Assembly: GCA_027038965.1 (NCBI GenBank)
Contig: JALWFG010000016.1
Coordinates: 124,001-188,000, forward strand
Length of the DNA: 64,000 bases
Direction: 5' to 3'
Source: Candidatus Desulfofervidaceae bacterium
Lineage (GTDB): Bacteria > Desulfobacterota > Desulfofervidia > Desulfofervidales > Desulfofervidaceae
Both the position numbers and the translations under genes were made by a program. Of the stretch, positions 8,240 through 43,510 are shown piece by piece. Every line of letters starts with the position of its first letter. Position 1 is the first letter of the stretch. A model generated the notes under the pieces. That model searched no databases and was not told the origin of the DNA. It was given only the letters and a program-made list of their open reading frames with translations.

Positions 8240-8274
8240 TTGACAGGACACAGCTAATTATTTATTCTAGCTGT
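8240..8274 (+). promoter_or_regulatory. Putative glmUS promoter with an inverted repeat over the -10
   Basis: TTGACA (8240-8245), a 17-base spacer and TATTCT (8263-8268), 24 bases before the glmU ATG. A 7-base inverted repeat (ACAGCTA 8250-8256, TAGCTGT 8268-8274) flanks the -10 and is placed like an operator. The rest of the 259-base gap before glmU shows no gene. Confidence 0.45.
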
Positions 8275-8291
8275 TTAAGGGAGAGTGTTTA

Positions 8292-9653: not shown

Positions 9654-9655
9654 AA

Positions 9656-20541: not shown

Positions 20542-21042
20542 ATGGACGAAAAGGACAAATATTTTATGCAACTTGCCCTAGAAGAGGCCTTAAGGGCAGA
20601 ACAAGAGGGGGAGGTGCCCATAGGGGCGATATTGGTTAAAGACCAGGAAGTTATTGCTAAGGCACATAATAGGGTTATTCAAGAAAACGATCCTACAGCC
20701 CATGCAGAGATATTGGTTCTCAGAAAGGCGGCCCAGGTGGTTGGCAACTACCGCTTGCTTGATACAAAACTTTATGTTACTATTGAACCGTGTTTGATGT
20801 GCGCTGGCGCTATGTTGCATGCCCGCGTGAAAAAGGTGTTTTTTGGAGCCCCAGAGCCCAAAATGGGTGCTTTTGGATCGGTATACGATTTGAGCAAAGA
20901 TAAGAGGCTAAATCATCAGATAGAGGTGGAAAGCGGGCTATTGGCCGAAGAGGCCCAATATCTAATCCAGCGTTTTTTTAAAGAGCGGAGAGGTACCGAA
21001 GAGGCCGTAACGGGGGCGACTCGAAATCGCCTTGTCCCGTGA
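20542..21042 (+). CDS. tadA: tRNA adenosine(34) deaminase TadA
   Basis: 166 residues. Converts A34 to inosine in tRNA-Arg(ACG). The zinc and catalytic motifs are HAEILVL (His and proton-shuttling Glu, about residues 54-60) and PCLMCAGAM (two Cys, about 84-92), in the standard deaminase fold beginning YFMQLALEEAL. The family normally ends around FFKERR. The reading frame continues 15 or so residues into the following tRNA-Ser gene and stops at 21040-21042 within it, a 56-base overlap with a structural RNA. Confidence 0.95.
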   Translation: MDEKDKYFMQLALEEALRAEQEGEVPIGAILVKDQEVIAKAHNRVIQENDPTAHAEILVLRKAAQVVGNYRLLDTKLYVTIEPCLMCAGAMLHARVKKVFFGAPEPKMGAFGSVYDLSKDKRLNHQIEVESGLLAEEAQYLIQRFFKERRGTEEAVTGATRNRLVP

Positions 21043-21082
21043 TGAGCGGGGCACGTGGGTTCGAATCCCACCCTCTCCGCCA
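20987..21082 (+). tRNA. tRNA-Ser (anticodon CGA)
   Basis: A 7-bp acceptor GGAGAGG/CCTCTCC with G73 and encoded CCA. The anticodon arm GGCGA-CTCGAAA-TCGCC gives anticodon CGA. There is a long variable arm, as expected for serine (CCCG-TGATGAG-CGGG), and a T arm GTGGGTTCGAATCCCAC. The first 56 bases are also the 3' end of tadA. Confidence 0.95.
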
Positions 21083-21110
21083 AGGGCGAGATAGGTAATA
21101 ACATTGTTTC

Positions 21111-21203
<93 letters not shown>

Positions 21204-23393: not shown

Positions 23394-25055
23394 ATGTTTG
23401 GTTGGACAGGTAAAATATTAAGAGTGAATCTTAGTGAAGAGAAGGTTTTTGTAGAGGACTTGAAGCCAGAAGAGCATTTAGATGTTCTTGGAGGGCGGGG
23501 TTTAGGCGCTAAAATACTTGCTTCTGAGGTGGATCCTGGAGTGGAGCCGCTTGGGCGTGAAAATAAAATTGTATTGATGACAGGGCCTCTAACCGGCACT
23601 GGGGCTAATAGTGGTTCTGTGTGCGCCGTGGTTACTAAATCTGCTTTGACCAAGACCATTGTCAGTGCCTCTTCAAAACTCTATTTTGGCGCTGAACTTA
23701 AAGCGGCTGGATATGATGGTTTAGTTATAGAGGGGAAGGCAAAAAGTCCGGTTTATTTAGATATAAGGGATGATCAAGTAGAAATTTTGCCAGCAGATTT
23801 TTTGGAAGGTCAAGACACAGAAGCCACCACCTTCTTGATTCGCTCTGGATTTAATGATCCTTGGGTGGCCCGAGAGGTAAGGGTGCTTTGTATTGGAGCT
23901 GCAGGAGAAAGAAGATTGCCCTTGGCTTGTCTTGTTACGGATGGAATTTTGGTGGCCGATAGTGGAGGTATTGGAGCCGTCTTTGGAAGTAAAAATTTGA
24001 AAGCCATTGCCGTTAGAGGCACAAAGGATATTTTATTTAATGATGGAAAAAGTTTTATAAAGAGTATAGCTGAAGGGGTTAAGGAAATTTCTACCAATCA
24101 GACCTTATCTTCCCTTTCTTCTTTTTCTAGTTATTTTGTTTATGATAATCTCATTTCCAAAAAAGTGATACCTAGTCTTTACTTTTCTAAGCCCTATGAG
24201 CCATCTAATGGGCTTAAAGATATAAGTGCCCATTGGGCTAGGGAAAGGGGATGCTTTGCATGTCCCATTGCCTGTTTTAAATTGGACAATGAAGGAGAGT
24301 CCTTTCCTGAACTGGATGCCTTTATTGCCTTGGGGCCCTTGTGTGGATTTGAAGACCCTGCTTTGATTAAAAAGGCTTACCACAGATGCCTTTTACACGG
24401 CATTGATCCAGTAGAAACGGGTGCCTTTATAGCAAGTTTGATGCGTTTGAACGAAATGAATGTTTTGGAGCAAGGTGCCTTTAGGCCAGTATTTGGAGAA
24501 GAGTCCTCCTATTTTGAACTCATTGAGGCCTTGGGCCAGGGAAAAAAAGAAATTGTTGGTTTGGCAAAAGATGTGATTTCTCTTTGGGAAGGGGTGGGAT
24601 ATGCTCAAAATTTTATTGGAGTCAGGGGAAAGACCATTCCCTTCAATTTGAACTACTGTCCTGTTTTAGCCCTAAATGCCATTACACATAGTTGGCCAAC
24701 CTCTTCCTTTGATATCTTTGCCTATTCAAAGAAGGACCCGAAGGTTAAAGATGTTCCTGCTGTAGTTAAAGGATATCAAGATACAAAGGCGGCTTTGGAG
24801 TCCTTAGGTGTTTGTGCCTTCTTGTCTCTGGGTGGAAATTTAAGCACACTTTTGTTTATGCTTAAGGCAGTTACAGGCCTTGAATGGGACGAAGAGAGAC
24901 TGTTAGGAGTTGGGGAAACCACTCTTAAGATAGAACATGAGTTTAACCAAAAGGCTGGTGGGGAAGGCGATGCAGACAATCTTTCCTCAAAGGTTGCCAT
25001 AAGTGGTTTTGAAGGTTTGTTAAGTGCATATTATCAATTAAGAGGATGGAGTTAG
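23394..25055 (+). CDS. Aldehyde:ferredoxin oxidoreductase family protein (AOR copy 1)
   Basis: 553 residues from the ATG at 23394 (GGGAGAAGG upstream; begins MFGWTGKILRVNLSE). It belongs to the tungstopterin AOR/BamB family. Pterin-domain signatures: TGPLTGTGANSG (about 64-75), ELKAAGYDGLVIEGKA (about 101-116) and GAVFGSKNLKAIAVRG (about 197-212). The [4Fe-4S] ligands are C-x2-C-x3-C in GCFACPIAC (about 286-293) and a late Cys in SLGVCAF (about 474), at positions similar to archaeal AOR. The cofactor loop VRGKTIPFNLNYCPVLALNA is divergent from the DPR motif of classical AOR, so the substrate is open. First gene of the AOR-Hdr-POR run. Confidence 0.88.
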   Translation: MFGWTGKILRVNLSEEKVFVEDLKPEEHLDVLGGRGLGAKILASEVDPGVEPLGRENKIVLMTGPLTGTGANSGSVCAVVTKSALTKTIVSASSKLYFGAELKAAGYDGLVIEGKAKSPVYLDIRDDQVEILPADFLEGQDTEATTFLIRSGFNDPWVAREVRVLCIGAAGERRLPLACLVTDGILVADSGGIGAVFGSKNLKAIAVRGTKDILFNDGKSFIKSIAEGVKEISTNQTLSSLSSFSSYFVYDNLISKKVIPSLYFSKPYEPSNGLKDISAHWARERGCFACPIACFKLDNEGESFPELDAFIALGPLCGFEDPALIKKAYHRCLLHGIDPVETGAFIASLMRLNEMNVLEQGAFRPVFGEESSYFELIEALGQGKKEIVGLAKDVISLWEGVGYAQNFIGVRGKTIPFNLNYCPVLALNAITHSWPTSSFDIFAYSKKDPKVKDVPAVVKGYQDTKAALESLGVCAFLSLGGNLSTLLFMLKAVTGLEWDEERLLGVGETTLKIEHEFNQKAGGEGDADNLSSKVAISGFEGLLSAYYQLRGWS

Positions 25056-25056
25056 G

Positions 25057-25446
25057 ATGTATAAAATAAAGGTTGATCATACAAAGTGCGTAGGATGTCG
25101 GTATTGTGAACTGGCCTGCTCTTTAAACCATCTTACCACGGCCTTGAACCCTAAAAAGGCTCGGATTAGGGTTTTGAAGGAAAATAACAGGTTTTTTCCA
25201 GTAATTTCAGGACCTTCTACTCAGGCCGCATGTAATATCAAAATTGATCTTGTAATTGGTGAAAAGGTTTACGACTTTTGCGACATCTGCAGGGCAGCGT
25301 GTCCGTTTAAAGATATTTTCAAAGACCCTAACACTGGAAGCGCAGTCCAATGCGATTTTTGTGGAATAGATGCTCCAGGACCTGCTTGTGTGAAGTGGTG
25401 TCCTACAGGTGCCTTGAGTATAGAAGAAGTGCCTTCTTACATATAA
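25057..25446 (+). CDS. AOR-associated 4Fe-4S ferredoxin subunit
   Basis: 129 residues. Several cysteine clusters fit two to four [4Fe-4S] centres: CVGCRYCELAC (about 9-19), CDICRAAC (about 73-80) and CDFC with CVKWC (about 96-113). This layout matches the small electron-transfer partners found beside AOR-type enzymes, including BamC. It starts two bases after the AOR stop and is closely similar to the gene at 31113, so each AOR copy has its own ferredoxin. Confidence 0.88.
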   Translation: MYKIKVDHTKCVGCRYCELACSLNHLTTALNPKKARIRVLKENNRFFPVISGPSTQAACNIKIDLVIGEKVYDFCDICRAACPFKDIFKDPNTGSAVQCDFCGIDAPGPACVKWCPTGALSIEEVPSYI

Positions 25447-25480
25447 ATTAGAATTGAAATAGAAGTGTGGTTGGCGGGGA

Positions 25481-28400
25481 ATGATGACTCAAATAAACGA
25501 ATTTATGCCTCCTGTTGGTTCTGTAATGGTAGTTGGGGCAGGGATTGCTGGAATTCAGGCCTCACTTGATTTGGCCGAAGCCGGTTTTAAAGTTTATTTG
25601 GTGGAGAAGGGTCCTTCAATTGGTGGCAGAATGGCCCAACTGGATAAAACCTTTCCTACTAACGACTGTTCTATGTGTATTCTTTCTCCCAAACTTTCGG
25701 AATGCGGGCGGAATGTCAATATTGATATTATTACCTTGGCGACGGTAAAGTCCCTTTCGGGTTATCCTGGCCGCTTTAAGGTGGTTTTACATAAAAAACC
25801 CCGTTATGTTGATGAAACAAAGTGTACTAATTGTGGTCTATGTGCCAAGTATTGTCCTACTTTAGTGCCAGATAAATATAATGAGGGACTTTCTTATACC
25901 AAATGCATCCATTTGCCGTTTTCTCAAGCTATTCCAGCAGTTCCCTATGTTGAGGCAGATGCCTGTCTTTATATCCAAGATCAGATGTGTCAGATTTGCA
26001 CCTTGGCCTGTAATTATGGGGCCATTGACTTTACTCAAAAACCGCAGGATATAGAGCTGGAAGTTGGGGCGGTGATTTTGGCCCCTGGATATGAGCCCTT
26101 TGATGCCAAAATTAGAGGAGAATTTGGATACGGCCGCTATGAGAATGTGATTACAGCCCTGGAATTTGAACGTTTAATATCGGCTAGTGGGCCCTATTTT
26201 GGCCATATTAAAAGACCTTCTGATAAAAAAGAGCCCAAGCGTATTGCTTGGATTCAATGTGTAGGTTCCAGAGATAGAAAAAATAACCGAGGTTATTGCT
26301 CCTCGGTCTGTTGTATGTATGCCACAAAGGAGGCCATTTTAGCTAAGGAACACATTCCTGACCTTGAGGCTACAGTCTTTTTTATTGATATAAGGGCGTT
26401 TGGCAAGGGATATGAGGCCTACTATGAGCGGGCTCAGAAACAATATGGGGTAAGATACATCAAGAGCCACATTTCTTGCGTGAAAGAAGACCCCAGAACC
26501 AAAAATCTTTTTATTAGCTATTTAGACGAGACTGGTGAACGGAAGGAAGAGGAATTTGACCTAGTTGTGCTTTCAATAGGCATTGGGCCTACATCAGAGA
26601 TGAAGGAATTGGCCAAGGTGTTGGGGATTGAGCTAGACCATTATAATTTCTGTCATACGACTCCCTTTACTCCTGTAGAAACCAACCGTCCTGGAATTTT
26701 TGTCTGTGGAGCGGCTAGTGCCCCTAAAGATATTCCCGACTCGGTCATGGAGGCCAGCGGGGCGGCAGCTGCTGCTGAATCCTTGCTTTCAAGGGCGCGT
26801 TTTTCCCTTACTCGGACCAAAGAGATACCTCCTGAGAAGGATGTTTCTCAAGAAGAACCCCGAATTGGGGTTTTTGTCTGTCATTGTGGAACGAACATAG
26901 GGGGGGTACTCAATGTCCCTGAACTTGCTAAATACGCCAAAACCTTACCTCATGTAACCTATGCTACTAACGTCTTGTATGCCTGTTCTGCTGATACCCA
27001 AGAAATAATCAAACAGGCCATAAAGGAATATGGCCTCAACCGCCTTGTAGTTTGTGCCTGCACCCCGAGGTCTCATTTGCCTTTGTTCCAAGAAGTGGCT
27101 CAAGAGGCAGGATTAAATCCCTATTTGGTAGAAATGGCCAATATCAGAGAACACGATGCTTGGGTTCACGCTCGGGCTGGAGAACTAGCCATGCAAAAGG
27201 CGAGGGACACTATCCGTATGGCGGTGGCCAAGGCTGCCATGTTGAAACCTCTTTATCAAAGTGAATATCCTGTAAGGCATAAGGCCTTGGTTGTAGGTGG
27301 AGGAGTGGCAGGCATGACGGCGGCCTTGGAATTGGCCGAGCAAGGCTTTGAGGTGTATTTAGTAGAGAAGACCTCTCAACTTGGTGGTAATGCCAAACGG
27401 ATCTATTGGACCATTGAGGGAATGGACGTCCAGCGGTTTTTAAAGGAACTTATTAATAAGATAGAAAAGAATGCCTACATTCATGTATATTTGAATACTG
27501 AAGTTTTAGATGTAAACGGGTTTATAGGTAACTTTGTTACCCAAATTCAAGACCATACTAACAACGAGACCAAGGAAATTGAGCATGGAGTGGTCATCTT
27601 AGCGACAGGAGGGCAGGAATTTAAACCGCAAGGGTTGTATAAATATGGCGAGCATCCTTGTGTTTTGACCTCTTTAGAGTTATCAGAGGCCATAGCTCAA
27701 AACCGAGAGCAGTTTCGAAGCGTTAATTCTTTAGTGATGATTCAATGCGTAGGGTCTAGAGATGAACACCGGCCTTATTGTAGCCGAACCTGCTGCACTC
27801 TGGCCATAAAGAACGCCCTAGCCCTTAAAAAAATTAATCCAGAGATGGATATTTATGTGCTCTATAGAGACATTCGCACTTACGGATTGAAAGAGGATTA
27901 TTATGCCAAGGCTAGAGAAGCCAATGTTAAGTTTATCCGATTTGAAAAGAATAATCCTCCTGAGGTCTTAATCCAGGGCGAAAGACTTTTTGTAAAGGTC
28001 TATGAACCTGCGCTTAAAAAGGAAATAGTGTTGACTCCAGATTTTGTCGCCCTGAGTGCGGCCATAGTGGCTAACCCTGAGAACGAAAAGCTGGCTCAGC
28101 TATTTAAAGTTTCCATAAATCAGGATAAATTTTTCCTTGAGGCCCACATGAAGCTACGACCAGTAGATTTTGCCTCAGACGGTCTTTTTATGTGTGGATT
28201 GGCCCATGCGCCGAAGTTTATTTCAGAAAGCATTGCTCAGGCCAGGGCAGCCGCCGCTCGAGCCGCGACAATATTGGCCAAACCTACTTTGAAAGGGGAG
28301 GCAATTACCTCTGAGGTTTACGATGAAAATTGTGATGGATGTGGATATTGTGTAGGTGTATGTCCCTTTAGGGCCATAAAATTGATAGAGTATATGCATA

Positions 28401-28555
28401 AGGGTGAGATAAAAAAGGTAGCTGAGGTTAATACATCGTTATGTAAGGGATGTGGAGTATGTATGGCTACTTGCCCTAAACGTGGTATTATGGTTAAAAA
28501 CTTTACGTTGGATATATTATCAGCCATGGTAGATGCCGCTTTGGCAGGAGAATGA
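25481..28555 (+). CDS. hdrA: HdrA-like FAD/iron-sulfur protein, internally duplicated (copy 1)
   Basis: 1024 residues, far above the roughly 650 of methanogen HdrA. Two FAD-binding Rossmann motifs are present: VVGAGIAGIQAS (about 18) and VVGGGVAGMTAALELA (about 604). Each half carries its own CVGSR...YCS..CC motif (about 262 and 757). Ferredoxin clusters sit at CTNCGLCAKYC (about 117), a C-rich segment near 165-178, CDGCGYCVGVC (about 950) and CKGCGVCMATC (about 985). FVCHCGTNIGG (about 466) is the usual HdrA linker motif. HdrA is the flavin-based electron-bifurcating subunit. It lies between the AOR-ferredoxin pair and porA. Confidence 0.92.
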   Translation: MMTQINEFMPPVGSVMVVGAGIAGIQASLDLAEAGFKVYLVEKGPSIGGRMAQLDKTFPTNDCSMCILSPKLSECGRNVNIDIITLATVKSLSGYPGRFKVVLHKKPRYVDETKCTNCGLCAKYCPTLVPDKYNEGLSYTKCIHLPFSQAIPAVPYVEADACLYIQDQMCQICTLACNYGAIDFTQKPQDIELEVGAVILAPGYEPFDAKIRGEFGYGRYENVITALEFERLISASGPYFGHIKRPSDKKEPKRIAWIQCVGSRDRKNNRGYCSSVCCMYATKEAILAKEHIPDLEATVFFIDIRAFGKGYEAYYERAQKQYGVRYIKSHISCVKEDPRTKNLFISYLDETGERKEEEFDLVVLSIGIGPTSEMKELAKVLGIELDHYNFCHTTPFTPVETNRPGIFVCGAASAPKDIPDSVMEASGAAAAAESLLSRARFSLTRTKEIPPEKDVSQEEPRIGVFVCHCGTNIGGVLNVPELAKYAKTLPHVTYATNVLYACSADTQEIIKQAIKEYGLNRLVVCACTPRSHLPLFQEVAQEAGLNPYLVEMANIREHDAWVHARAGELAMQKARDTIRMAVAKAAMLKPLYQSEYPVRHKALVVGGGVAGMTAALELAEQGFEVYLVEKTSQLGGNAKRIYWTIEGMDVQRFLKELINKIEKNAYIHVYLNTEVLDVNGFIGNFVTQIQDHTNNETKEIEHGVVILATGGQEFKPQGLYKYGEHPCVLTSLELSEAIAQNREQFRSVNSLVMIQCVGSRDEHRPYCSRTCCTLAIKNALALKKINPEMDIYVLYRDIRTYGLKEDYYAKAREANVKFIRFEKNNPPEVLIQGERLFVKVYEPALKKEIVLTPDFVALSAAIVANPENEKLAQLFKVSINQDKFFLEAHMKLRPVDFASDGLFMCGLAHAPKFISESIAQARAAAARAATILAKPTLKGEAITSEVYDENCDGCGYCVGVCPFRAIKLIEYMHKGEIKKVAEVNTSLCKGCGVCMATCPKRGIMVKNFTLDILSAMVDAALAGE

Positions 28556-28564
28556 ATGATTAAT

Positions 28565-28589
28565 GGTTAGAGGGTATGATCCTCTAATC
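28565..28589 (+). other. Intercistronic hairpin between hdrA and porA
   Basis: GGTTAGAGG, loop GTATGAT, CCTCTAATC: a 9-base-pair stem with one G-U pair in the only sizeable gap (61 bases) of the cluster, just before a strong AAGGAGGA ribosome-binding site. No T-run follows, so an mRNA-processing or stability element is likelier than a terminator. Confidence 0.45.
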
Positions 28590-28616
28590 ATGAGAGTGAA
28601 TTAAGGAGGAAAGGCA

Positions 28617-29795
28617 ATGCCTAAAAGAGTTGGCATGGAAGTTTCCATCGCGATTGCAGAGGCAGTGAAGTTGTGTGATGTGGATGTCATTTCCGCTTAT
28701 CCGATCACACCTCAGACCCACATTGTAGAGCATCTCTCTGAGCTTGTGGCCAATGGAGAGCTAGATGCGGAGTTTATTCCGGTGGAGTCTGAACATACCG
28801 CTATGAGTGTGGCAGTAGGGGCATCTGCTTCTGGCGCTAGGGTATATACAGCTACCGCTGCCCAAGGTTTGGCCCTTATGCATGAGATTCTATTTATTGC
28901 CTCCTCAATGCGTTTGCCTATTGTAATGACTGTAGCCAATCGGGCCTTATCGGCGCCTATTAGTATCTGGAATGATCACAGTGATATTATGGCAGAGAGA
29001 GATATTGCTTGGATTCAGACCTTTGCTATCAACGGGCAAGAGGCCTATGATTTGACTTTTCATGCCTTTAAGGTGGCTGAAGATGAAAGGGTGCAGCTAC
29101 CGGTAGTGGTGAATATTGATGGATTTACTCTAAGTCACGTTATTGAGCCTATTGAGTTAACAGAAAAGGAGCTTGTAGATAAATATCTACCTCCTCGGAA
29201 AACAATCTTAACTCTTCATCCAGACAAACCCGTTACAATGGGGCCTGTAGGGATCCCTGAGGTATATACCGAGGCCAGGAGGCAATTGGAAGTTGCCCTT
29301 TTGAACTCAAAGGCAGTGGTTATAGAGGCATGGAAGGACTTTGCCAAGGTTTTTGGAAGAGAATATCATCCCATTGAGAAATACAGGACCGAAGATGCCG
29401 AGGTGATTTTTATAACCATGGGTTCTATTACCGAAACGGCTATGCAGGCTGTAGATAAATTGAGGGATAAAGGTGAGAGGGTGGGCTTGGTTTATATTCG
29501 TTTATGGCGTCCCTTCCCTCACGATGAGTTTTATAATGCCATCAAACAGGCTAAGGCAATTGCGGTTCTGGATAGGGCCATTTCTTATGGTGCTAACGCA
29601 GGGCCAGTATATACAGAAATACGCTCTTCGCTTTATGATAGGCGAAAGCGGCCAGCAATTTATGGTTTTGTAGCTGGTTTGGGTGGAAGAGACATTTCAG
29701 CCGAGCGATTTTTTGAAATGTTTGAGGTGATTAAGTCTGGTAAGATGCCCGAAGGGCCTACACAATATTTACATCTTGATGTAAAGGAAGATTAA
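28617..29795 (+). CDS. porA: Pyruvate:ferredoxin oxidoreductase, alpha subunit
   Basis: 392 residues, the standard length of the separate alpha subunit. Starts MPKRVGMEVSIAIAEAVKL; the substrate-binding region contains SAYPITPQTHIVEHLSEL (about residues 23-40) and EFIPVESEHTAMSVAVGASA (about 56-75). The complex oxidises pyruvate or a related 2-oxoacid to the acyl-CoA and reduces ferredoxin; it can run in reverse. The other three subunits (gamma, delta, beta) lie 3 kb downstream, separated by AOR2, ferredoxin, hdrC and hdrB. Its stop abuts the AOR2 start. Confidence 0.93.
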   Translation: MPKRVGMEVSIAIAEAVKLCDVDVISAYPITPQTHIVEHLSELVANGELDAEFIPVESEHTAMSVAVGASASGARVYTATAAQGLALMHEILFIASSMRLPIVMTVANRALSAPISIWNDHSDIMAERDIAWIQTFAINGQEAYDLTFHAFKVAEDERVQLPVVVNIDGFTLSHVIEPIELTEKELVDKYLPPRKTILTLHPDKPVTMGPVGIPEVYTEARRQLEVALLNSKAVVIEAWKDFAKVFGREYHPIEKYRTEDAEVIFITMGSITETAMQAVDKLRDKGERVGLVYIRLWRPFPHDEFYNAIKQAKAIAVLDRAISYGANAGPVYTEIRSSLYDRRKRPAIYGFVAGLGGRDISAERFFEMFEVIKSGKMPEGPTQYLHLDVKED

Positions 29796-31088
29796 ATGTT
29801 TGGTTGGAACGGTAAACTACTAAGGGTAAACCTAAGCAACGGGGTTATGAGAGAGGAGCTCCTCGCTGAGGAGTTTTTAGAGAAGTTTTTAGGTGGGTGT
29901 TCTTTGGCCACAGAAATCGCACGTGCCGAAGGGGCTTCTGGTGAAGAGAGTAAGGTGGTCTTTGCTTGTGGGCCCCTCACAGGAACAGGTGCTCCAACAG
30001 CGGCCTTTTGTAATATGGCTGTTTGGAGAGAAGGTCAGGAAGTGTGCGCACCTGTGTTGCTCCATTTTGGGCCTGAATTGAAATATTGTGGCTATGACGC
30101 GTTGGTAATAGAGGGAGAGGCCCCGGAGTGGTGTTATCTGCTCATTGTTGATGGCGAGGTAAGAATTGTTCCTGCAGGAGAAATTCAGGGTTATACTTCG
30201 TCTGAGACAGAGGGTTTTATTCGCTCTTTTTATAGGAAATGGTATGGAAATGAAATTCGGATTGTGAGTATTGGTCCAGAAGGAGAAGCGGATTCTTCCT
30301 TAGGGGCTATTGCTACTGATGGTTTATTGTTAAATCAGACTGGAGGTCTAGGTAATGCCCTTGGCCAGAAGCGTTTAAAGGCCATTGGTCTTAGAGGCAC
30401 TTTTGATCTTAAGTTGGCCAAACCGGCTGGTTTTCAGGCCTTAATTACCGACATGATAGCCGAGTTTAGGGCCAAAAGAGAAGAAATTTTTAATTCTATC
30501 CATCAGATTTTTCCTCGTTTGGATATTCCCCTGTTTATTGAAATTCATCATGGAGATATAGAAAAAAGGGCATGTATGGCTTGTCCTATTGCTTGTTTAC
30601 ATCAGAAAAATGATAAATTTTTGCCTAATAGCACAGTTTGCTTTTGTTTTGGAGAATTGTTAGAAATTTCTGAAATAGAAAAGGCCCTGGACTTATATGA
30701 TTTTTGCGTTGCAGAGGGTATTGACCCTGTGGCCTTAAGTATCACCTTGAGATTGCTAATGGAGATGAAAGAGATAAAGGCTCTTGATGTGGACATAGAA
30801 ATCGGGGACGTTCAAGGAATCAAAGAGCTTGTGAGGAATAAAGATTCTGTTTTACATAAAGGTAGTTTTCGTTTGGCCAAAGAACATGGAGCCGAAGACA
30901 TCCTGCAAGGAATTGTGAAAAAAATTGAAGATATGAGAGAGATAATTTGGAAAGGCTTAGGGGTAAGCCACGAGCAAAGGCAGGTTATAGAAAGATTAGG
31001 ACTTTGCCCCTATGTATTAATGATTTTCTCATTTGACAAGATTATAGACTTGTTTGAAATGGCAACAGGGAAAAAAGTAAGTATATAG
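29796..31088 (+). CDS. Degenerate AOR-family protein (AOR copy 2)
   Basis: 430 residues, about 120 shorter than the copy at 23394. It shares the opening (MFGWNGKLLRVNLS), CGPLTGTGAPTA (about 53-64), ELKYCGYDALVIEGEA and a weakened GNALGQKRLKAIGLRG. The Fe-S ligands survive: ACMACPIAC (Cys about 259, 262, 266) and GLCPY (about 403). The block between about residues 350 and 385, which in copy 1 contains the pterin-contacting VRGK...H segment, is absent, and the acidic PELDAF of copy 1 is replaced by STVCFCFG. It may be a cofactor-free structural or electron-transfer paralogue; that is inference. Confidence 0.8.
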   Translation: MFGWNGKLLRVNLSNGVMREELLAEEFLEKFLGGCSLATEIARAEGASGEESKVVFACGPLTGTGAPTAAFCNMAVWREGQEVCAPVLLHFGPELKYCGYDALVIEGEAPEWCYLLIVDGEVRIVPAGEIQGYTSSETEGFIRSFYRKWYGNEIRIVSIGPEGEADSSLGAIATDGLLLNQTGGLGNALGQKRLKAIGLRGTFDLKLAKPAGFQALITDMIAEFRAKREEIFNSIHQIFPRLDIPLFIEIHHGDIEKRACMACPIACLHQKNDKFLPNSTVCFCFGELLEISEIEKALDLYDFCVAEGIDPVALSITLRLLMEMKEIKALDVDIEIGDVQGIKELVRNKDSVLHKGSFRLAKEHGAEDILQGIVKKIEDMREIIWKGLGVSHEQRQVIERLGLCPYVLMIFSFDKIIDLFEMATGKKVSI

Positions 31089-31112
31089 ATAGCCTTAGAA
31101 GAGAGGATAATA

Positions 31113-31532
31113 ATGGATCCGAGAAATTACCGTATGCGGGTAGATACCAATAAATGTACTGGGTGTAGGCATTGTGAAATGGCCTGCTCAATGGTGCATA
31201 ATCAAGATAAGGCTAATTATCATCGGGCCCGAATTCGGGTTATTGACCTAGGAGATAGATTTTTACCCCTGATGGCAGGGCCCTATGTTTCTGAAATCGA
31301 AGAATGTGCTTCTAAAAAGTTGGTTAAGGTTGGAGATAAGGTTTATGATCAGTGCTGTCTCTGTCGGGCCTCTTGTCCTAATAAATCTATTTTTAAAGAG
31401 CCAGACAGTGGAATTCCTTTGAAATGTGACTTCTGCGCCTTTAGGGAGGAAGGACCTGCTTGTGTTCAGGTTTGCGCTAGTGGAGCCTTAAGTCTAGTTA
31501 AAATAAAAGAGGAAACTGAAGAAGAGGTATGA
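31113..31532 (+). CDS. AOR-associated 4Fe-4S ferredoxin subunit, second copy
   Basis: 139 residues, a paralogue of the gene at 25057: CTGCRHCEMAC (about 12-22), CCLCRASC (about 84-91) and CDFC with CVQVC (about 108-124). It follows the degenerate AOR and overlaps hdrC by four bases, so AOR2, this protein and HdrCB are probably translated together. Confidence 0.88.
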   Translation: MDPRNYRMRVDTNKCTGCRHCEMACSMVHNQDKANYHRARIRVIDLGDRFLPLMAGPYVSEIEECASKKLVKVGDKVYDQCCLCRASCPNKSIFKEPDSGIPLKCDFCAFREEGPACVQVCASGALSLVKIKEETEEEV

Positions 31533-32047
31533 TGGATTTCCTTAAAGAAGTTAACCAAAGAAGCGGGCAGCAAGTGCAGCTTTGTTTTCAGTGTTTTAAG
31601 TGTAGTCTAGGCTGTCCAGTGGCCTTTGATATGGATTATTTACCTCATCAGCTCATCCGCCTGGTTCAGCTAGGGGAAAGGGATAAGGTTTTGGGCAGTC
31701 ATGCCATCTGGATTTGTGCTGCCTGCGAAACCTGTACAACACGTTGTCCTAATGATATAGACATTGCTAGAGTGATTGACACCTTAAGACAAATGTCATT
31801 GGAGACAAATAAGACATCTGAGCCTGATATAGTGGCCTTCCATAAGTCATTTATGGAAACCGTGCGTTATTTGGGTAAGGCCCATGAGGTAGGGATGATG
31901 CTTACTTATAAATTGAGGACAAAGAGGTTTTTTGATGATTTATGGCTAGCCCCAGAGCTGTTTAAACGGGGCAAGCTTTCTTTTAAAATCAACAGAGTGA
32001 AAGATTTGGGTGAAATAAAGCAAATTTTTGATAGGGCAGGTACATAA
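31529..32047 (+). CDS. hdrC: Heterodisulfide reductase subunit C-like protein
   Basis: 172 residues, soluble. Two [4Fe-4S] ligand sets: CFQCFKCSLGCP (about residues 16-27) and CAACETCTTRCP (about 61-72), the normal HdrC arrangement, followed by a helical tail. HdrC passes electrons from HdrA to HdrB. It overlaps the upstream ferredoxin by four bases and precedes hdrB by five. Confidence 0.92.
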   Translation: MMDFLKEVNQRSGQQVQLCFQCFKCSLGCPVAFDMDYLPHQLIRLVQLGERDKVLGSHAIWICAACETCTTRCPNDIDIARVIDTLRQMSLETNKTSEPDIVAFHKSFMETVRYLGKAHEVGMMLTYKLRTKRFFDDLWLAPELFKRGKLSFKINRVKDLGEIKQIFDRAGT

Positions 32048-32052
32048 AGTAG

Positions 32053-32901
32053 ATGAGAGTTGCTTATTATCCAGGTTGTACCTTAGAGACAACGGCCAAG
32101 GAATTTGATTTGACCAGTCGTGAAGTATGCAGGACCTTGGGAATAGATTTGGTAGAAATTCCCGACTGGAATTGCTGTGGTGCGAGTTCAGCTCACGAGA
32201 CTAATACTTATTTATCACTTGCTTTACCAGCACGCAATTTGGTAAAGGCAGAAAGAGAGTTAGGCTTAGACATTGTGGTGCCCTGTGCCGCATGTTTCAA
32301 CCGTTTGAAGACTGCCGAGAAAAGGCTTTTGGCAGGGAAGCACGAAGACTTTCCTTTTGAAGGTAAAATAAAGATTTATAGTCTTTTAAGTTTCTTGGCC
32401 CAACCCAGATGGAAAAAGGTTTTTAAACAGGAAATTAAGAGACCTTTAAGGGGTTTAAGGGCAGTGGCTTATTATGGTTGTTTGCTGACGCGACCGCCAG
32501 AAATTACTGACCACCCTCAGCCTGAAAATCCGATGGAGATGGATGACCTTTTAAAGGTTATGGGGGTAGAGTGTCTGCCTTGGTCATATAAGACCGATTG
32601 TTGCGGGGCGAGTTTAGTGGTATCAAAGGTAGATATTGTTCACCGCCTTGTAAAAAGGCTATATGATAAGGCATTTGAAATAGGGGCCGAATGTATTGTA
32701 ACTGCTTGCCCTTTGTGTCATGCCAATTTGGACCTGAGACAAAAGGAGATTAATGAGAAGTTTAATACTAATTACTATCTACCCATCTTTTATTTTACGG
32801 AGTTGATGGCTTTAGCGATGAAAATAGGAGATACCCAAAATTGGGCAAGGGGACACTTGGTAAATCCAAGTCCTTTGCTTAAGGCAAAAAAAATTCTATA
32901 A
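32053..32901 (+). CDS. hdrB: Heterodisulfide reductase subunit B-like protein
   Basis: 282 residues, the usual HdrB length. Both CCG domains are complete: a first set with PGC (Cys about 9), NCCGAS (about 40-42) and CAACF, and a second set with YGC (about 144), DCCGAS (about 182-184) and CPLC (about 221-224). These bind the two non-cubane [4Fe-4S] clusters that split disulfides in methanogens. In sulfate reducers and syntrophs the acceptor is usually not CoM-S-S-CoB, so the physiological acceptor here is unknown. Confidence 0.92.
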   Translation: MRVAYYPGCTLETTAKEFDLTSREVCRTLGIDLVEIPDWNCCGASSAHETNTYLSLALPARNLVKAERELGLDIVVPCAACFNRLKTAEKRLLAGKHEDFPFEGKIKIYSLLSFLAQPRWKKVFKQEIKRPLRGLRAVAYYGCLLTRPPEITDHPQPENPMEMDDLLKVMGVECLPWSYKTDCCGASLVVSKVDIVHRLVKRLYDKAFEIGAECIVTACPLCHANLDLRQKEINEKFNTNYYLPIFYFTELMALAMKIGDTQNWARGHLVNPSPLLKAKKIL

Positions 32902-32915
32902 AGAGGTAATTTGTT

Positions 32916-33464
32916 ATGTTAGAGGTAAGATTTCATGGGCGTGGAGGTCAAGGAGCTGTTACCTGTACAGAACTAATAGCCAAGGCTGCCATTGCTGAAG
33001 GAAGATATGCTCAGGCCTTTCCTAGTTTTGGAGCAGAGAGAAGAGGGGCCCCAGTTATGGCCTTTCTGCGGGTGGATGAAGGGCCTATTCGGATGAGGCA
33101 AAAGATATATGAGCCTGATGTTGTAGTTGTCCTTGACCCTACACTTTTAAGTTTGCCTAGTGTGAAAGAGGGATTGAAAGATAAGGGTTTAGTGGTGGCC
33201 AATTATCATAAATTGCCTCAAGATTTACAAAAGGAGTTTGGTTTTAAACAAAGGGTTGCTACGGTAGATGCGACAAAGATTGCCCTAGATATATTAAGGC
33301 TCCCTATTACTAATACTACTATGCTTGGGGCCCTTGTAAAGGCCACAAACCTGGTGGGACTAGAGGCCTTGTTTGAGGCCTTGGAAGAAAGATTTGGGCG
33401 ATTGGCTGAAAGGAACAGGGCCGCTATGGAGAGGGCCTTTAATGAAACTAAAGTGATGGAGTAG
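32916..33464 (+). CDS. porG: Pyruvate:ferredoxin oxidoreductase, gamma subunit
   Basis: 182 residues, normal for the separate gamma subunit. Opens LEVRFHGRGGQGAVTCTELI, the CoA-binding-type GRGGQG motif, with AQAFPSFGAERRGAPVMAFL (about 30-49) and the closing family pattern ITNTTMLGALVKATNLVGLE. Five bases separate it from porD. Part of the porGDB block. Confidence 0.94.
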   Translation: MLEVRFHGRGGQGAVTCTELIAKAAIAEGRYAQAFPSFGAERRGAPVMAFLRVDEGPIRMRQKIYEPDVVVVLDPTLLSLPSVKEGLKDKGLVVANYHKLPQDLQKEFGFKQRVATVDATKIALDILRLPITNTTMLGALVKATNLVGLEALFEALEERFGRLAERNRAAMERAFNETKVME

Positions 33465-33468
33465 GGCT

Positions 33469-33765
33469 ATGGCCAAAAAGATAGAAGCTATTGCTAGCTG
33501 GAAAGATTTACCCTTAGGCTGTGTTATTGCTCAGCCTGGGAACGCAAGGGAGTTTCTGACTGGAGATTGGAGGACTCAGCATCCGGTCCTTGACAAAGAT
33601 AAATGTATCAGGTGTGGCCGTTGCTGGATATATTGTCCAGAAGCTGCTTACAGCGAAAACGAAGAGGGTTTTTTTGTTTGTGACTTAAATTATTGTAAGG
33701 GTTGCGGAATTTGTGCTCAGGAGTGTCCTGTCGGGGCCATAACCATGGTATTGGATAGTGATTAA
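33469..33765 (+). CDS. porD: Pyruvate:ferredoxin oxidoreductase, delta (ferredoxin) subunit
   Basis: 98 residues with two typical [4Fe-4S] motifs: CIRCGRCWIYCP (about 44-55) and CKGCGICAQECP (about 74-85). It conveys electrons from the TPP site to the external acceptor. The N-terminal SWKDLPLGCVI and the GDWRTQHPVLD lead-in are characteristic of PorD. Confidence 0.94.
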   Translation: MAKKIEAIASWKDLPLGCVIAQPGNAREFLTGDWRTQHPVLDKDKCIRCGRCWIYCPEAAYSENEEGFFVCDLNYCKGCGICAQECPVGAITMVLDSD

Positions 33766-33789
33766 ACAAAGTTTGATAAGGGGAAGAAA

Positions 33790-34755
33790 ATGCCAGAAGC
33801 AAAGGCTTTTAAGGGCTTGAAGGCAAGAGAATTGCCAAAACAGGAGCTTTTTTCACAGGGTCACCGGGCTTGCCAGGGATGTGCCGGGGCCTTAGCTTTA
33901 CGGTTAATTTTGAAGGCAATAGGAGAGAGGGTAATTGTGACTGCTGCCACTGGTTGTATGGAAATCATTTCTTCACCCTATCCTCAAACGGCTTGGAAGG
34001 TGCCTTGGATTCATGTGGCCTTTGAGAATGCAGCGGCTGTGGCATCAGGAATTGAGTCGGCCTTGAAGGTGTTGATGCGAAAGGGGAAAATAAAGCAAGA
34101 GAAAATTTATGTCATTGCTATTGCTGGCGACGGTGGGACAGCTGACATTGGATTGCAAGCCCTTTCAGGTGCCTTGGAAAGAGGGCATGACTTTGTTTAT
34201 TTCTGCATTGATAATGAGGCTTACATGAATACAGGAATTCAGCGTTCTTCTTCAACTCCATTTGGGGCTAGGACTACTACCTCCCCTGCAGGCAAAAAGG
34301 GTATTGGTCAAATGACTTGGAAAAAGAATGTAGCTGAAATTGCTGTAGCGCACCACATTCCTTATGTAGCTACTGCATGTCCTACTTATTATCAGGATAT
34401 GATGAATAAGGTCAAAAGGGCAGTAGATACCCCTGGGCCGGCTTATGTCCATTGTTTATGTCCCTGTCCTACTGGCTGGCGGGTCAGTCCCCATCTGGCT
34501 ATTGAAATAGGGCGACTGGCGGTAGAAACAGGTGTTTTCCCTCTTTATGAAGTGATAAACGGACAATACAAAATAAACTATCCCCATCGGCGACTCAAAC
34601 CAGTAAGGGAGTATCTCCAGCTTCAGGGTAGGTTTAGACATCTTACCGATGAATATATAGAGAAGATTCAACAGCGGGTCAATGAAGAGATGGCAAGGTT
34701 AAGGGCCTTAGAGAAGTTTGGGAGCTTTTACAAAAGTGTTTCGGCCCATTTTTAA
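33790..34755 (+). CDS. porB: Pyruvate:ferredoxin oxidoreductase, beta (TPP-binding) subunit
   Basis: 321 residues. TPP-binding motif [20 protein letters not shown] (about residues 115-134) ending in the DNEAYMNTG segment; Fe-S cysteines in [10 protein letters not shown] (about 27-36) and ATGCMEII (about 56). The CLCPCPTGW stretch (about 220) is also typical. Completes a four-subunit POR whose alpha gene lies upstream beyond AOR2 and hdrCB. Confidence 0.95.
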
Positions 34756-34757
34756 AA

Positions 34758-35714
34758 ATGGCTTTAAAAGAGCTTGCTCCCATTATAGAGGCAATTGACA
34801 AGGAGATAAGAAATCATTTAAGGGCTCGGTCTCCTTTAGCCCAAGAAGTGGGTGAGTATATTCTAAAAAGCGGTGGCAAGAAGATAAGGCCACTGCTTTT
34901 TGTTTTATCGGCTCGGTTGTGTGGGGAGCAGAGTGGCAGGGAGCTTAAACTTGCTCCCATCTTTGAATATCTCCATGTGGCTACGCTTCTCCATGATGAT
35001 GTTATTGATGGGGCCTGTCTAAGGAGGGGAAAACCTTCAGCAAATGCCGTCTGGGGAAATACGATCCCAATTTTGGTTGGAGACTTTCTCTTAGCCAGTG
35101 CCTTGGAATTGGCCGCTTCTTCTGGAAATTTAAAGATGGTGGAGGTCCTTTCACAAACTACCTCTTTTCTGGCCCAAGGTGAGATCCAAGAAATTGTAAA
35201 GGCCAATCATTTGGAACTTAGCGAAGAGGAATATTATGAGATTATTAAGGGCAAGACGGCAGTACTTATCGGGGCAGCTACTAGATTAGGGGCCGTTTTG
35301 GCTAATGCCTTTGCGGAGCGAGAGAATAGATTGCAACATTACGGTTATAACTTAGGGATGGCCTTTCAGATTATGGATGATGTATTAGATTATATAGGCA
35401 ATGAGGAGGAGTTTGGTAAGCCTGTAGGACACGATTTATTGGAAGGTAAAGTAACCTTACCCCTTATTTATGCCCTGAGAGAGGCAACCAGCTCGGAAAG
35501 AGAACAGATAGGAAGATGCTTTAACAGGAAACACAAAGAGGATATAGATTTTATTATAGATTTTGTCAGAGCAAAAGGGGGTCCTCAAAAGGCCATTTCT
35601 AGGGCTAAAGAGTTGATTAATAAGGCCAAACAGGCCTTAGCACCCTTTCCAGGGGGATTTGTTAAAGACTCTTTGTTAGAAATAGCCGACTTTGTAATTG
35701 AGAGGCGATTCTAA
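34758..35714 (+). CDS. Polyprenyl diphosphate synthase (long-chain type)
   Basis: 318 residues. First aspartate-rich motif LLHDDVIDGACLRRGKPSAN (about residues 77-96), second MDDVLDY (about 207-213), and GDFLLASALELA between them; the GKKIRPLL start is also diagnostic. The length and small residues before the first DDxxD suggest a long-chain (octaprenyl-like) product for quinones or undecaprenyl-type carriers. It begins three bases after porB, so it shares the transcript of the redox cluster; a menaquinone side-chain role would make sense but is inference. Confidence 0.92.
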   Translation: MALKELAPIIEAIDKEIRNHLRARSPLAQEVGEYILKSGGKKIRPLLFVLSARLCGEQSGRELKLAPIFEYLHVATLLHDDVIDGACLRRGKPSANAVWGNTIPILVGDFLLASALELAASSGNLKMVEVLSQTTSFLAQGEIQEIVKANHLELSEEEYYEIIKGKTAVLIGAATRLGAVLANAFAERENRLQHYGYNLGMAFQIMDDVLDYIGNEEEFGKPVGHDLLEGKVTLPLIYALREATSSEREQIGRCFNRKHKEDIDFIIDFVRAKGGPQKAISRAKELINKAKQALAPFPGGFVKDSLLEIADFVIERRF

Positions 35715-35726
35715 ACAGGGGTTTTC

Positions 35727-36707
35727 ATGCCTGTTCTTACCTTGTGGGCACAATTTTTGTTTTGTGCCTTTTTCATTCTTGTGTCTGGGCAAAAGCTTTC
35801 GTTTTATGCGGATGTTATTGCCGAAAGATTTAATTTAAGCAAGGGCTGGATTGGTCTTCTGATTTTGGCACCAGTCACCTCTTTACCAGAGTTTTTTAAT
35901 GGAATAAGTGCTGTCTTATGGCTGAATGCCCCTAATATTGCTGTAGGAGACATTTTGGGGAGTTGCGTGTGTAACCTATCTTTTCTAGCCATCCTTGATT
36001 TAATTTCCGGCAGGGTTTCTTTAAGTCAAAGATTGAAGGGTTCCCATTTTTTATCTGCCAATTTTGGCATTATTATGATTTGTCTTATAGGATTTGGTAT
36101 TCTTATAGGTAAACATTTTTATTTTGCATGGTTTAGCCTGATCAGTCTTGGTTTATTTTTTCTATATTTCATAGCCTTGGGTTTGGTATTTAGAGAGGAG
36201 GTCAAGATAATTGCTTCGGAACTGGTACATCCAGAAGTGGCTTTAGATCAAGCAATAAAAAAGTTTTTATTAAATGCCGCAATTATTATTTTGGCCGCTA
36301 CGTGGTTGCCTAGGGTAGGGAAGGAATTGGCCTTGGTTACAGGCCTTGGCCAAACATTTATAGGCAGCAGTTTGATTGCCTTTAGCACTTCTTTGCCTGA
36401 ATTCGTAGTTACCCTTTCGGCCTTTAGACTCGGAAGTGCCGATATGGCAGTGGCCAATATTTTGGGTAGTAATATCGTAAATCTTTTTCTTATCTCAATT
36501 TATGATTTTTTATACCTTTCAGGCCCCCTGCTCACTTTTGTAGACCAGCAACAATTTGTAAACATCTTTTCGGCCGTTTTGATGACAACCACCTTTATCT
36601 TGGATATTTATTTAAAACCTGCTAAAAGGGCAATCTTTAGTTTTTTAAGCGTTTTTTTAATAAGTATTTATTGTTTTAACTCTTTTGTCCTTTACTTACT
36701 ACGTTAA
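35727..36707 (+). CDS. CaCA-family Na+/Ca2+ (cation) exchanger
   Basis: 326 residues, about ten membrane segments in two inverted halves. Each half has an alpha-repeat: LAPVTSLPEFFNGISA with GDILGSCVCNLSF (about residues 50-90) and GSSLIAFSTSLPEFVVTLSA with NILGSNIVNLFLI (about 210-255). The protein exchanges Na+ or H+ for Ca2+ or K+. It ends the run of genes starting at 23394; no tie to the redox enzymes is evident beyond the shared strand and 12-base gap. Confidence 0.9.
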   Translation: MPVLTLWAQFLFCAFFILVSGQKLSFYADVIAERFNLSKGWIGLLILAPVTSLPEFFNGISAVLWLNAPNIAVGDILGSCVCNLSFLAILDLISGRVSLSQRLKGSHFLSANFGIIMICLIGFGILIGKHFYFAWFSLISLGLFFLYFIALGLVFREEVKIIASELVHPEVALDQAIKKFLLNAAIIILAATWLPRVGKELALVTGLGQTFIGSSLIAFSTSLPEFVVTLSAFRLGSADMAVANILGSNIVNLFLISIYDFLYLSGPLLTFVDQQQFVNIFSAVLMTTTFILDIYLKPAKRAIFSFLSVFLISIYCFNSFVLYLLR

Positions 36708-36951: not shown

Positions 36952-39900
36952 ATGAAGAAAGTATTAGTGATTGGTGGTGGAGTTGGAGGTATTGAAGCGG
37001 CGTTAGAATTAGCAAATTTAGGTCATTATGTTTATCTAGTTGAAAAATCTCCCTTTCTTGGCGGGTTGATACCTAGCCTGTTAAAAACCTATCCCGTTTG
37101 CTTTTACTGCAATTTTTTCCCTAAACTTTCAGAGTGCGAAAATCATTTCAATATCCAAACCTTAACCCAGACCCAAATAAAGGATATTGAAGGCCAAGTA
37201 GGGCAATTTAAGGTAAAGGCGATAAGAGAGTCTAGATACATAGACATGAACAAATGCACCTCTTGTGGTTTATGTGCTGAACAATGTCCTCAAGAGATAG
37301 ATTACCCCTTTAATGGAAGTTTGAGAAAGAGAAAGGCCGTTTATCTCCCTCATCCTTGGGCTATCCCCCATAAGTACGTGATAGACAAAAATGCCTGTCT
37401 CTTCTTTAAAGATAAAAGCTGTCGGAAGTGCGAAGAGGTCTGTCCCGTTCAGGCCATAAATCTTGGAACCCAAAGTGAAGAATTAGAATTGGAGGTAGAT
37501 TCTGTTATTTTCGCAGCTGGGGCCAGCCTTTCTGACCCTGCTATTTGTGAACGTTACCATTACCTTTCTCTTCCAAATGTGATTACAGGCATGGAACTGG
37601 AGTGTTTGTTAAAGGATTCTATCAAATTATATGGCCATCTTGTTCGACCTTCAGATAAAAAACGGGTTAAAAAGGTGGCGTGGCTTCAGTGTGTGGGTTC
37701 TAGAGAACTTAATAAAGATAAGTGCGGATATTGTTCTTCTGTTTGTTGTATGTATGCCCTAAAAGAGGCCTTAATTTCTAGAAAAACTAGCGATGTAGAG
37801 GCGACTATTTTTTTTATGGATTTAAGGGCTTATGGAAAGTATTTTGAAGAATATTATCAAAAGGCCAAAGACTTGGGTATTCGTTTTGTGAGGTCAAGGG
37901 TTCATGCCTTGAGTCCTTCGCCAGAGGAAGGCAATGTCATCGTAAAATATGCTGACGAAAATGGCGATTTGATTGAAGAGGAATTTGACTTAGTCTCCCT
38001 TTCAGTAGGATTCCATCCTTCTGCGGATGTGGTTGCCATTGCTCAAAAGTTGGGCGTTAATTTAAATAAATATCATTTTGTGGAAACTACTTCCTTTACT
38101 CCTGTCCAAACCTCTAGGCCAGGTGTTTACGTTTGTGGCGTATTTCAAGAACCCAAAGATATTTTGGATACGACCACCCAATCCAGCGCAGCCGTTGCCG
38201 AAGTAACGGCCAATTTGAATACCTTATCTTCTTCCAAAAAGATGGAGTCTCCAGTAGCCTGGGAAGAGAAGGAGACAAAAATAGGTGTATTTCTTTGCCA
38301 ATGTTTGGGCACCATTAGCGAGGTAATTGACCTAGAGGCCATTTCCCAAGAGCTTCAGGCAGATCCAGAAATAGCTTTCTGTGATATTTATCCTTCTCTT
38401 TGTAGCTTGGAAGGAAGAAAATTTATTCAAGAGAAAATAAAGGAATTGGGACTTAGTCGGATATTAATTGGGGCCTGTAGCCCAAAGCTATATGAACTTC
38501 ATTTCCAAGCCCTTGTTAAAGAGGCGGGTGTATGTCCTTATTTGATGGAAATGGCCAATTTGAGAGAGCAGTGTGCTTGGCCACATTTAGAACAAAGAGA
38601 GCTTGCTACCCAAAAGGCGAAGGCACTGGTTAAAATGGCTCTAGCAAAACTGAGGCTTGATAAGGCAATTAGAAGGCAGGTAGCACTTCCCTTTAAATCT
38701 ATATTGGTGGTAGGGGGAGGCATAGCAGGACTTGTGGCGGCCTTACAAAGTGCCAAATTGGGTTTTGAAGTTTATCTGGTAGAAAAGGCAGAGCAGCTTG
38801 GTGGGATAGTTAACAAAATCCATCTTACTTGGAAAGGAGAAGATGCCCAAGCGTATTTAAAAAATCTTTTAGAAGAGGTGACTAACCATCCTCGAATTCA
38901 TATATACACCAAGGCTGAAGTCGTAGATTCTTCAGGGCAAATTGGACATTTTAAGACCTCAGTTAAAACTTCCTCAGGAATTAAACACATTGAACACGGA
39001 GCGATTATTTTGGCCTCTGGGGCAGAGGGTTATCGGCCCAAGGAGTATCTTTATGGGAAACATTCCCGGGTGTTAACTTCTTTAGAACTTCAACAAAAGA
39101 TCTTTCAACAGGCTCCTGAGGTAATAAATGCCCAAAAAGTTGTTTTTATCCAATGTGTGGGGTCTCGCAACAATGAACATCCTTATTGCAGCCGCATATG
39201 TTGTACCCAAACGATGAAAAATGCCCTCTTACTTAAGGAAAGAAATCCTCAGGCCGATATCTATGTCCTCTATCGGGATATTAGGACTTATGGGTTTAAA
39301 GAAGACCTTTATCGGGAGGCTAGGGCGAAGGGTATTGTCTTTGTGCGCTATGACGTGAATGACCTCCCAAGGGTAGAAATGTTAAAAAGGCCTTCAGGAA
39401 GGGGGTTTTTACCCAAGTTAAGGGTTGAAGTTAACGATTCCCTTCTAAAGAAAAAATTGATTTTGGATGCCGACATTGTGGCCCTGGCAACAGGCATTGT
39501 ATCTAGGGAAGACAATCGAAGATTGGCCCAAATCTTTCATGTTCCTATTGATGAACACGGATTCTTTAAAGAAGATGTTAGGGCCTTGAGTGCAGTCAAT
39601 TCTATGGCCGAGGGCGTTTTTGTCTGTGGACTGGCCCAAGGGCCCAAGTTTATTGATGAAAGTATTGCCCAAGCTATGGCAACGGCTAGTAAGGCAGCCC
39701 AGATATTATATGGAGACCAAATTGAGCTTACGCCGTTTGTTTCAGAGGTGATTGATGAAAATTGCGATGGCTGCGGTTATTGTGTGGAGGCTTGTCCCTT
39801 TAAGGCACTTCGTTTAGTGGAATATATGAATCAGGGCGAAGTAAAGAAGGTAGCTGAGGTTAATGTGGCTTTATGTCAAGGATGTGGTGTCTGTCAGGCG

Positions 39901-39987: not shown

Positions 39988-39999
39988 AGGAGGGTTACC

Positions 40000-40461: not shown

Positions 40462-40472
40462 AGGGAGACAAA

Positions 40473-43508: not shown

Positions 43509-43510
43509 AA

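Follow-up and report, generated by a model that had tools for sequence, protein, structure and literature searches.

The eleven-gene run and its subunits

The window analysed here, i.e. the whole stretch of 64,000 nucleotides taken from a Desulfofervidaceae genome (G000:C16:124001-188000; genome G000, 2.19 Mb in 21 contigs), contains a run of eleven genes between positions 23394 and 34755, in which two paralogues of the aldehyde oxidoreductase (AOR) family and two ferredoxins (Fd) are interleaved with the subunits of a heterodisulfide reductase (Hdr) and of a pyruvate:ferredoxin oxidoreductase (POR). The order is AOR1-Fd1-HdrA-PorA-AOR2-Fd2-HdrC-HdrB-PorG-PorD-PorB, with successive intergenic gaps of 1, 34, 61, 0, 24, -4, 5, 14, 4, and 24 bases; the strand-uniform arrangement given in a preliminary description of this DNA was confirmed, all eleven genes lying on the + strand. 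Genes were named through Pfam and NCBIfam profiles, the scores of HdrB and HdrC being weak and under the NCBIfam cut-offs (aa, amino acids; TPP, thiamine pyrophosphate):

23394..25055, +, AOR1: AOR-fold protein, 553 aa; Pfam AFOR_N 214 bits, AFOR_C 124-126 bits
25057..25446, +, Fd1: ferredoxin, 129 aa, 12 Cys (space for three [4Fe-4S]); homologue of Fd2
25481..28555, +, HdrA: 1024 aa; NCBIfam HdrA2 1004 bits, under the cut-off of 1100
28617..29795, +, PorA: alpha subunit of a pyruvate-type 2-oxoacid:ferredoxin oxidoreductase; PorA_Arch 517 bits (cut-off 550)
29796..31088, +, AOR2: shortened AOR paralogue, 430 aa; Pfam AFOR_N and AFOR_C over cut-off
31113..31532, +, Fd2: BamC-like ferredoxin, 139 aa, 13 Cys
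31529..32047, +, HdrC: Pfam Fer4_8; nearest NCBIfam QmoC and HdrC, both under cut-off
32053..32901, +, HdrB: two complete CCG (non-cubane cluster) motifs; match to 5odc_B
32916..33464, +, PorG: POR gamma; PRK08534 232 bits, over the cut-off of 225
33469..33765, +, PorD: POR delta, named from CxxCxxCxxxC occurring twice (2x[4Fe-4S]) and from its position
33790..34755, +, PorB: POR beta; PRK11865 431 bits, over the cut-off of 405; TPP motif GDG...N

The motifs of both Hdr and POR are intact. HdrA (E=2e-207 against the methanogen HdrA 5odc_A) is the 1024-aa form with two FAD domains, not the methanogen form of about 650 aa: the motif CVGSR..YCS..CC..A.K occurs in each FAD domain, the HdrA N-terminal domain lies between them, and two [4Fe-4S] motifs are found at the C-terminus. 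HdrB matches 5odc_B with E=1.7e-33. All four POR subunits are present with their TPP and iron-sulfur (Fe-S) motifs and an alpha subunit of the pyruvate type; the best solved match of PorA is a pyruvate:ferredoxin oxidoreductase (9bt4_B, E=3e-106), and PorB matches 9bt4_C of this enzyme (E=1.6e-90). The best solved match of Fd2 is BamC of benzoyl-CoA reductase (4z3w_E, E=3.4e-30).

Conservation was followed at the level of the class in six genomes, five of the same family (G000-G004, G000 being the source of the window) and one of another family of the same order (G005). The possibility that the gene order is unique to this contig was checked, and the same order of eleven genes was found in all five family genomes, one of which is a single contig; in each of them HdrB carries two complete CCG motifs, HdrC two [4Fe-4S] motifs, and PorD the CxxCxxCxxxC motif twice. 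Identities to the G000 genes are 78-89% for PorA, 83-87% for PorB, 73-81% for HdrA, and 71-78% for HdrB, as against 43-57% for AOR2 and 43-56% for AOR1. Neither dnaX nor ispB adjoins the block in G002, and dnaX is absent beside it in G003; since AOR1 to PorB are whole in both, the differing flanks mark the boundaries of the block, and the same order in five genomes at these levels of identity, together with its integrity despite changed flanks, rules out chance or an assembly artefact. Two frames were seen as overlapping pieces, due to sequencing error or to a real frameshift, namely HdrA in G002 (L036 8200-11252) and AOR1 in G004 (L038 11987-13653).

The two AOR paralogues

To describe the two AOR-fold proteins, residues are numbered as in the AOR of P. 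furiosus (Pf), and the canonical set comprises 33 AORs with R76 (33/33). Six cofactor or second-shell residues were scored, i.e. R76, R186, T243, E313, Y427, and H448; the last four have been named as the AOR second shell (PMC12096430), and the placing of R186 beside the Mg/phosphate site follows by inference from the equivalent residue of WOR5, Tyr199: it comes three positions behind Ala196, a ligand of Mg, and R186 has the same spacing to Ala183.

In a tree of 51 AORs, the POR-linked AOR of G005, the AOR1s, and the AOR2s form one clade with 100/100 support, so that AOR1 and AOR2 arose by duplication of a POR-linked AOR; the AOR2s make up a monophyletic group whose stem measures 1.3 changes per column, and the duplication was thus followed by rapid change of AOR2. 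AOR2, which had been taken for a normal AOR, has 430 aa compared to about 600 for AORs and retains none of the six scored residues in any of the five genomes. All AOR2s are without Pf segments 255-283 and 419-461, of which the latter would hold Tyr427 and His448, and without most of 521-601. The four [4Fe-4S] ligands (C288, C291, C295, and C494; cysteines 260, 263, 267, and 404 of AOR2) are present wherever a complete AOR1 or AOR2 was tested. Within G000, the AFOR_C score falls from 513 bits in a canonical AOR on contig C14 (L044) to 126 in AOR1 and 38 in AOR2. The AlphaFold model of AOR2 (pLDDT 91.7) has significant Foldseek matches to the AOR family only, with a TM score of 0.80 by AOR2 length. 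A decaying pseudogene was considered and rejected, because the frame is open in five genomes, the four Fe-S cysteines are invariant (4/4, compared to 25% of columns), and the model is confident.

AOR1 is less reduced. In G000 it keeps one of the six scored residues, with R76, G95, G96, and R186 replaced and a second shell of S243/D313/F427/S448; the AOR1s of G001-G003 keep two or three of the six. That AOR1 is still a catalytic tungsten enzyme whose reaction is coupled to POR and Hdr, AOR2 being an inactive partner, seems quite improbable. BamB, a tungsten enzyme, has no AOR second shell either, and several features would suit such a role: AOR1 is nearly full length, its model (pLDDT 91.3) is a complete AOR fold with a TM score of 0.94 to 1aor, His448 is kept in the AOR1 of G001, G002, and G003 and in the AOR of G005, and the canonical AOR elsewhere in G000 suggests that tungstopterin is made. 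The four residues replaced in AOR1 are nevertheless all kept in a full-length AOR that stands beside a ferredoxin of BamC length (L171), and the low score of the G000 protein argues in the same direction. An aldehyde-oxidising function is, with the scored residues lost, rejected for AOR2 and unlikely for AOR1; judging from their residues, both look like Fe-S adapter subunits rather than aldehyde enzymes.

AOR2 has, in addition, five further cysteines. Those at residues 35, 72, 84, 98, and 284 (Pf 35, 77, 91, 105, and 317) are invariant in all five genomes. Position 77 is a cysteine in the 11 POR-linked AORs compared and in none of the 33 canonical AORs; at position 91 a cysteine occurs in 7 of the 33 canonical AORs, while at 35, 105, and 317 it occurs in 0, 0, and 1 of them, respectively, and in none of the set formed by AOR1 and the AORs of G005 and G009, a genome of another family (see below). 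As to their placement, C77 adjoins the lost R76, C91 lies two residues from Asn93, and 317 is one helix turn past E313. Cysteines account for 3 of the 14 AOR2-specific invariant residues (binomial p 0.007 against the cysteine frequency, a test chosen after the cysteines had been seen and suggestive only). From this pattern it may tentatively be proposed that in AOR2 a second Fe-S cluster has taken the place of the tungstopterin, which would leave a former tungsten enzyme with the sole task of passing electrons between Hdr and pyruvate synthase; according to a 2025 review, all known members of the AOR family carry the cofactor (PMC12096430). AORs adjoining HdrA in other families (L042, L162, L163, L164, and L165) also lack R76 and have cysteines at Pf 77 and 91, an observation which indicates that loss of the canonical cofactor residue is wider than the POR cluster.

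Distribution and neighbourhood of the block

At the same dnaX-ybaB/ispB locus, G005 has Fd1-PorA-AOR-Fd2-PorG-PorD-PorB, without Hdr and without AOR1, and G009, the Syntrophaceae metagenome-assembled genome (MAG) UWMA-0184 (L046), has AOR-Fd-PorG-PorD-PorA-PorB. Since both carry the AOR/Fd pair and POR without Hdr, the pair goes with POR itself, and is either older than the link to Hdr or has outlived the loss of Hdr. The G009 cluster resembles the unit of the window in that an R76-less AOR and a BamC-like ferredoxin are joined to POR, and differs from it by the absence of Hdr, by its single full-length AOR, and by its canonical POR order. When 395 genomes of the phylum were searched with Fd2, a single ferredoxin above 55% identity was found outside the class, that of G009; in the neighbourhoods examined there, an AOR or ferredoxin stood with HdrA in 15/19, and POR was present in 0/19. 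AOR-Fd-Hdr is thus common and AOR-Fd-POR rare, while the AOR-Hdr-POR triple unit was seen only in Desulfofervidaceae. A POR-Hdr cluster without AOR was observed in an Actinomycetota MAG (L062), where HdrC-HdrB-PorG-PorD-PorA-PorB-HdrA-MvhD-HdrA stand in a row.

A scan of public genome contigs, a set from which close records may be missing, returned 80 relatives of PorA, none of them from the class Desulfofervidia, and wherever their POR order could be read it was, with few exceptions, PorG-D-A-B; PorA is therefore truly displaced in the window, and the statement that the POR subunits are split around AOR2 and HdrCB holds. These comparisons bear on the possibility that the operon only co-transcribes separate enzymes, a Bam-like or AOR-Hdr-type enzyme and an ordinary POR, which share it because both exchange electrons with ferredoxin. 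The frequency in the phylum of AOR-Fd-HdrA clusters without POR and the BamC-like character of Fd2 would fit such an arrangement, which is nonetheless unlikely: AOR2-Fd2-HdrCB lies between PorA and PorGDB in all five family genomes, and in the outgroup G005 AOR-Fd2 is found there; POR is seldom divided elsewhere; and the AORs have lost their catalytic residues.

As for the surroundings, the span originally assigned to the system reached position 36707; the gene run stands, and its end does not, the system stopping at 34755 and the last two genes being separate genes, read from sequence, beyond the unit:

34758-35714, polyprenyl synthetase
35727-36707, cation exchanger

Two tandem tRNA-Ser genes (cga, gga) lie at 20987-21203, upstream of dnaX. 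Just downstream, at 36952-44281, follow HdrA (1011 aa), an HdrC-like gene, a further HdrA (1011 aa), and an MvhD-like gene (43511-44281). This set was not adopted as a part (HdrA2-HdrC2-HdrA3-MvhD) of the unit: in G001 and G003 the POR block has no such neighbour, and close MvhD homologues sit elsewhere in G002-G004. In G022 (L042), similar HdrA, MvhD, and HdrC genes come after an AOR-Fd pair whose AOR lacks R76.

Metabolic context and proposed function

Strong PF01855 proteins number three in each family genome and two in G005, the types (read in G000, G002, and G005 only) being the PorA of the unit, a KorA, and a VorB; the PorA of the unit is the only PorA-type POR in each genome. Each of the five family genomes encodes a protein resembling ATP-citrate lyase (ACL); that of G000, of about 620 aa, has a SucD-like N-terminal match and a partial citrate-synthase match, and the preceding frame was read as AclB. 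G005 has an ordinary citrate synthase and no ACL match. The acetyl-CoA synthase CdhC gave no match in any of the six genomes of the class, and a Wood-Ljungdahl context was accordingly set aside; DsrC is present in five of the six. For HotSeep-1, a reductive tricarboxylic acid (rTCA) cycle without the Wood-Ljungdahl pathway has been predicted (PMC10553843). A further operon, HdrC-HdrB-HdrA-Fd-KorA-KorB, occurs in G000, G002, and G005 (L181, L183, and L185):

G000:C16:54000-65000 (L181), 193-11001, Kor-Hdr operon

Downstream of it are a TfrA-like gene in G000 and, in all three genomes, genes read as succinyl-CoA ligase; fumarase genes lie upstream in G000. Through it, the other carboxylase of the rTCA cycle, 2-oxoglutarate synthase, would be linked to an Hdr as well.

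Each part of the unit is known, and an Hdr-coupled 2-oxoacid synthase has a precedent. In vestimentiferan symbionts, korABCD and tfrAB are interspersed with flxABCD-hdrABC, and a single complex delivering electrons directly to the carboxylase has been proposed (PMC6315080); KorABCD is located between HdrA and HdrBC (PMC11636981). The symbiont and Thioflavicoccus clusters share with the unit the position of the genes of a CO2-fixing 2-oxoacid synthase between hdrA and hdrBC, the proposed direct feed from Hdr, and the rTCA context (PMC6315080, PMC11636981); they contain 2-oxoglutarate synthase and Flx, whereas here pyruvate synthase is found with no Flx and two AOR/BamC-like pairs. With class II benzoyl-CoA reductase, BamBCDEF(GHI), the unit has in common an AOR-fold subunit and a BamC-type ferredoxin beside Hdr-type subunits, but its AORs have lost cofactor-site residues, POR stands in place of the tungsten catalyst, and BamGHI is absent from the eleven genes. 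In BamB, a cysteine of the protein (Cys322) is a ligand to tungsten. The FAD/[4Fe-4S] motif of HdrA, HdrC, and an HdrB with two CCG clusters recall MvhAGD-HdrABC and related systems, from which the unit differs by its two-FAD HdrA and by the lack of MvhD or hydrogenase in the run. It has the four subunits of archaeal-type PorABGD with their TPP and Fe-S motifs, although the genes are split, PorA standing upstream of AOR2-Fd2-HdrCB.

With about even confidence, the unit may be regarded as an Hdr-coupled pyruvate synthase for CO2 fixation, in which the AOR/BamC-like pairs serve as electron adapters. The gene content, the kept order, the intact Hdr and POR motifs, the degeneration and duplication origin of the AORs, and the rTCA context are read from sequence; the physical complex, the direction of flow, and the identity of the donor and of the disulfide acceptor would be matters of inference. 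One electron-transfer assembly would form around PorABGD: HdrA-HdrC-HdrB would split (or join) electrons at the flavin, the two CCG clusters of HdrB letting the high-potential electrons out to DsrC or another partner of the disulfide type, and the low-potential branch would pass through AOR1-Fd1 and AOR2-Fd2, homologues of BamB-BamC acting as Fe-S wiring and docking subunits and not as aldehyde enzymes, to POR, which would carboxylate acetyl-CoA to pyruvate for the rTCA cycle. The preliminary description had put forward a joint assembly of three kinds of enzyme, by which the conversion of 2-oxoacids or aldehydes would be tied to Hdr. The POR-Hdr part, and with it 2-oxoacid conversion, is plausible, given the interleaving in five family genomes, the kept block boundaries, and the parallel HdrCBA-Kor operon; the AOR as a third enzyme type, and with it aldehyde chemistry, is not supported, given the lost cofactor residues (AOR2 0/6, AOR1 1/6).

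The same complex might also run oxidatively: POR would oxidise pyruvate, and the electrons would pass through the AOR/Fd pairs, HdrA, and HdrB to the DsrC trisulfide as disulfide acceptor and so sustain sulfate reduction. The POR reaction is reversible, and both CCG clusters of HdrB and the presence of DsrC would be consistent with this direction, to which only a low probability is assigned, as ACL in all five family genomes and the lack of CdhC point to the rTCA cycle, where pyruvate synthase works reductively, and the Kor-Hdr operon likewise stands among rTCA enzymes.

Several observations weigh against an Hdr-coupled pyruvate synthase. No MvhD, Flx, or hydrogenase subunit is encoded among the eleven genes, an MvhD-like gene lying outside the unit, so that the electron donor for bifurcation is either missing or supplied in trans. 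The five genomes with the eleven-gene order belong to one family, and the proteins of an operon whose order is kept need not form a complex. AOR1 may retain some cofactor binding, His448 being kept in three of the five family members. Finally, the Hdr link is not strictly tied to the ACL-type rTCA cycle, because the Kor-Hdr operon occurs also in G005.

No description of a POR-Hdr-AOR unit was found in the open-access literature, although the cluster may have been drawn before in the supplement of PMC10553843, whose figures show the surroundings of Hdr genes in HotSeep-1 and other organisms; as far as that literature shows, the novelty lies in POR as a partner of Hdr, in the putative AOR adapters, and in the conservation of an AOR whose cofactor site can no longer be recognised. 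The source of low-potential electrons for pyruvate synthase in rTCA bacteria has been called unresolved (PMC10052474). An Hdr bifurcation module wired to pyruvate synthase, beside the Hdr of 2-oxoglutarate synthase, would, if true, answer this question concretely for a lineage of seemingly autotrophic sulfate reducers which is probably that of HotSeep-1, a partner in the anaerobic oxidation of methane. A conserved AOR without a tungsten site would, if true, show that the AOR fold has been put to a new use, that of an Fe-S adapter, and calls for caution in annotating such degenerate AOR genes as aldehyde oxidoreductases.

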